The notes under the pieces: model-generated
Seen by the model: the letters and a program-made list of their open reading frames with translations, nothing else
What the model was told of the DNA's origin: nothing
The model's database searches: none
Assembly: GCA_026390445.1 (NCBI GenBank)
Contig: JAPLFX010000049.1
Span: 1 to 64,000 of the forward strand
Length of the DNA: 64,000 nucleotides
Reading direction: 5' to 3'
Origin: Pseudomonadota bacterium
GTDB lineage: Bacteria > Bdellovibrionota_B > Oligoflexia > Oligoflexales > CAIYRB01
Part shown: positions 7,613-11,292 of the stretch, piece after piece
Position numbering within the stretch: the stretch's first letter is position 1
Layout: each line of letters starts with the position of its first letter
Program-made: the position numbers and the translations under genes

Positions 7613-11292
<3,680 letters not shown>

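Follow-up and report, generated by a model that had tools for sequence, protein, structure and literature searches.

An in-frame amber codon in gyrB of a draft Oligoflexales genome: probably a consensus error or an unfixed nonsense allele

In this work we have examined a stop codon that interrupts the gyrB reading frame in a draft genome from a genus of the order Oligoflexales (4.17 Mb in 269 contigs, 93% complete). The window, by which we mean the whole stretch analysed, covers the opening 64 kb of a contig 82.9 kb long, and coordinates refer to it unless another locus is named. Among named genomes, its closest relatives stem from environmental samples, for the most part as metagenomes; several are listed as Oligoflexales or under a related name. 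We denote the genome of the window G000, its five congeners G001 to G005 and a genome of the next genus G006; G002 is the nearest sister species (CAIYRB010000133.1, Umea_bin-10125), with 95.2% DNA identity across the locus. The genes stand in the syntenic order dnaA-dnaN-gyrB-gyrA, and around 10145-10165 dnaN is followed directly by gyrB, with no recF between them. The gyrB frame runs on the minus strand from an ATG to a TAA (7613-10147), as supported by its sequence, Pfam domain order and identity to the sister gene, and gyrA, intact by the ORF list and by comparison across the order, lies directly downstream on the same strand (5087-7600). A preliminary description of this DNA had noticed an amber codon inside gyrB, and the assembly sequence indeed reads TAG in the gyrB frame at 8315-8317 on the minus strand (AGG CGC AAG CCG CGG TAG GTT CTC GAT TTT TTC). 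We number codons from an upstream TTG, which places the TAG at codon 618 and gives an ORF (8315-10168) of 617 aa. The ATG at 10147-10145 is the likelier start, since a Shine-Dalgarno-like AGGAAGG lies just upstream of it (10154-10160, minus strand), and 610 aa then precede the stop. Past the TAG another 233 codons follow before the frame closes with the TAA at 7613-7615, as the preliminary description had also said.

When the stop is read through, the frame matches the GyrB domain set in Pfam, with HATPase, DNA_gyraseB, Toprim and C-terminal domains all above cut-off. The part upstream of the stop (8318-10147, minus strand) holds the ATPase and transducer domains, the complete Toprim domain (residues 434-546) and the start of the GyrB insert domain PF18053 (residues 584-714; 8027-8419, minus strand), within which the stop lies. 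The part downstream (7616-8314, minus strand) consists of the rest of the insert domain and DNA_gyraseB_C (residues 779-840), and its first 67 codons contain no start. Read as written, with ordinary termination by RF1, the gene would thus give a GyrB without part of the insert domain and without the whole C-terminal domain. It had been proposed that the product ends before the Toprim C-terminal and GyrA-contact region; the C-terminal domain would be cut off, but Toprim is complete upstream of the stop. Solved gyrases, for example 7z9c, align over codon 618 without a gap.

The joined frame is 99% identical in protein sequence to gyrB of the sister species and has the same length as that unsplit gene. 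Because the alignment contains no indel and the sister codon 618 is GAG, the stop stems from a base substitution rather than a frameshift, as had been suspected at the outset, and a frameshift or translational bypass can be ruled out. Codon 618 is GAG in G001, G002, G004 and G005, GAA in G003 and again GAG in G006; beyond G006 the residue varies among E, G, Q, A and K. Since all congeners have Glu here, the TAG is best described as one private G-to-T change. Comparison with gyrB of sister genomes had been set beforehand as a test that could refute the preliminary reading, and the relatives proved to be without the stop. The two sister genes differ at 121 codons synonymously and, besides the stop, by 4 amino-acid changes. 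The dN/dS ratio is 0.005 upstream of the stop and 0.026 over the 233 codons downstream; by these ratios, purifying selection on the rest of gyrB is very strong both before and after the stop. Such low values mean that the full-length protein was under selection until the tip of the branch.

Could the two parts of the frame be made as separate proteins? In phage T4 the GyrB-type subunit of the topoisomerase is split into gp39 and gp60, and the present gene resembles this case in that a GyrB-type frame is broken by a stop. A split GyrB, whose N-terminal 610 aa would end at the TAG and whose C-terminal part would arise by re-initiation, would also have its split point in an insert domain that varies between lineages. 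Unlike the T4 genes, however, the gene lacks inserted DNA, a bypass gap and a start of its own for the second part, and its length is that of the unsplit sister gene. The first possible start after the stop is a TTG 67 codons on and the first ATG comes only after 93 codons, which bears out the initial remark that no close ATG follows and that a split gene is poorly supported. With no start nearby we rejected the split gene, and consider re-initiation highly improbable.

The decoding machinery offers little to an amber codon. TAG terminates 134 of the 489 ORFs of at least 300 codons (27%), so it is a common normal terminator and, as had been anticipated, its global reassignment is unlikely. RF1 is intact in all six genomes of the genus, G000 included. 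A search for an amber-suppressor tRNA(CUA) or PylS had been recommended, and neither was found in this genome: the 93% complete draft has 38 tRNAs that pass the cut-off, with no tRNA(CUA) among them, a relaxed search down to E = 5 added one match of only 16 bits, and the best PylS match reached 22.6 bits against a cut-off of 178. Nor was a tRNA(CUA) present among the tRNAs readable in G002 and G004, where some tRNAs were left unread. Terminal stop usage, RF1 and the tRNAs together rule out global reassignment of TAG, and the missing PylS rules out pyrrolysine decoding. For amber reassignment, or dedicated decoding by a suppressor tRNA or pyrrolysine, only the open frame past the stop can be cited; besides the evidence above, no other convincing in-frame TAG appears in about 310,000 codons. 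A genome-wide amber system is already refuted; a more limited one would become conceivable again if the unassembled part contained a tRNA(CUA), and to this we give almost no credence. The preliminary description had listed suppression, a recent mutation and a base-call error as options, and this list holds, although suppression is left unsupported by the intact RF1 and by the failure to find a tRNA(CUA) or PylS. RF2 was not found in the assembly, even though TGA is used as terminator more often than TAG or TAA and an RF2-like match is seen in the other congeners; tRNA-Asn was not found either, and both presumably sit in the missing part of the draft.

How isolated is this stop? A hexamer-based coding scan that covered 1.0 Mb of G000 (about 310,000 coding codons) gave the gyrB TAG and no further convincing in-frame stop. 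The remaining candidate pairs, judged by eye and without a homology check, resembled same-frame neighbour genes, antisense shadow ORFs or weak short tails and were set aside. Genome-wide decay or an error-rich assembly of G000 can be rejected, since gyrB has the sole convincing in-frame stop in 1.0 Mb. Across 80 kb of synteny with the sister species it is likewise the only stop in a conserved gene. No stop was found in gyrA of 41 genomes of the order, nor among the matches listed for ABC-transporter domains in the genus, and gyrB of the relatives compared, other than G000 and G004, has no in-frame stop. In 80 loci drawn from a separate species-representative collection, stops in gyrB (64,314 codons) occurred only in the record of G004, and gyrA and dnaN had none. 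A consensus error rate of roughly 1e-5, if assumed, would produce a spurious stop about once in every Mb of draft.

In G000 neither a second gyrB nor a parE was found, the genome having a single GyrB/ParE-type match, and the congeners likewise yielded neither a further GyrB nor a ParE homologue. For ParE the search was negative in all six genomes of the genus, although other families of the order have a homologue. As far as the gene content tells, the cell appears to have no type II topoisomerase besides gyrase, so truncation should be lethal, as is expected when the sole such enzyme is lost. It may be that a recent true nonsense mutation is tolerated through a second, intact gyrB on unassembled or unbinned DNA, and the draft does leave about 7% of the genome missing, with tRNA-Asn and RF2 presumably among the missing parts. 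We consider this very unlikely: a further GyrB or ParE homologue is not seen in any congener, the locus is syntenic over dnaA-dnaN-gyrB-gyrA, and the dN/dS values give no sign of relaxed selection.

More questions are raised by the congener G004 (OMIY01000134.1, AM_0764). Its gyrB is interrupted twice by an in-frame TAA, at aligned codons 136 and 258, and at each of these its congeners have Glu; the two stops lie at 12872-12874 and 12506-12508 of locus L158 (contig C134, minus strand) and are seen in the congener alignment and also in the public record. They come so early that a split gene could not work there, which, like the unsplit gene of the sister species, counts against re-initiation in G000. 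On the same contig gyrA, dnaN, dnaA and the other genes compared have no in-frame stop, and elsewhere in G004 only two further ones were seen in about 152,000 coding codons. These are a TAG, probably at a Tyr position, in a gene that looks by eye like a glycoside hydrolase (L179, 1309-1311, minus strand) and a TAG in a gene named by eye as oxidoreductase-like (L180, 8688-8690, minus strand); both look like ordinary pseudogenes or errors. At the background rate of that genome two stops in one gene have a probability of about 6e-5, a figure calculated post hoc. Glu codons account for about 22% of the one-change routes to a stop (63 of 289). Random local base errors in this gyrB were considered and rejected, since two nonsense changes should bring dozens of missense changes with them; at 301 otherwise invariant columns the gene has no other private change, which argues that it is not simply error-ridden. 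The stops in gyrB of two of the six genomes of the genus exceed what the background predicts, although this is a post hoc observation.

Is it possible that the stop is real and present, with near-cognate tRNAs reading through the UAG at a low level to make GyrB? The cell would then have reduced gyrase and be a hypomorph, either compensating or short-lived. The purifying selection that persists downstream of the stop would accord with this, as would the existence of a second species of the genus, G004, with gyrB stops and no missense changes alongside. Belinky et al. 2021 (PMC7918605) argue that some bacterial in-frame stops are read through, and gyrB is like the genes they describe in that dN/dS is low both before and after the stop, here 0.026 over the 233 codons past it. 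They kept only stops shared by at least two genomes, which they demanded in order to exclude sequencing errors, whereas the gyrB stop is private and codon 618 is Glu in all congeners. The context of the codon does not help either: the base after the TAG is G, and the folding energy of the RNA that follows is ordinary in comparison with shuffled sequences (z -0.21), on which ground a stimulatory RNA element was rejected. With no suppressor tRNA found and RF1 intact, and with the stop sites of G000 and G004 differing, which argues against a shared recoding signal, we regard readthrough as unlikely. The match returned by a literature search for gyrB readthrough has an abstract on the tRNA modification m1G37. 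Perhaps gyrB of this genus repeatedly gains Glu-to-stop changes which are tolerated by gene-specific readthrough, setting a low dose of the apparently sole type II topoisomerase of the cell. The coincidence with G004 is the reason why we keep a small probability for such gene-specific tolerance of stops, but we think it very unlikely.

The reading we prefer is that the TAG is either a wrong consensus base or an unfit nonsense allele in the sampled DNA that is not fixed in living cells, and we infer this with a probability of about 0.75. Termination by RF1 would truncate the one GyrB/ParE-type protein found in this genome, so cells of the living population almost certainly carry a sense codon at position 618, which would be Glu. 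The case comes closest to the isolated nonsense substitutions or consensus errors of draft metagenome-assembled genomes, which it resembles in being a single-base stop seen in a single genome, in an otherwise intact and strongly conserved gene where relatives have a sense codon. It differs from the typical example in that the gene is essential and that a congener independently has stops in the same gene. The case advises caution: one premature stop in a draft metagenome-assembled genome does not amount to evidence for recoding. Were the stop real and fixed, stop readthrough would be needed for an essential enzyme under the standard code and with a normal RF1, which would be striking. The one lead to retain is the occurrence of gyrB stops in a second species of the genus.
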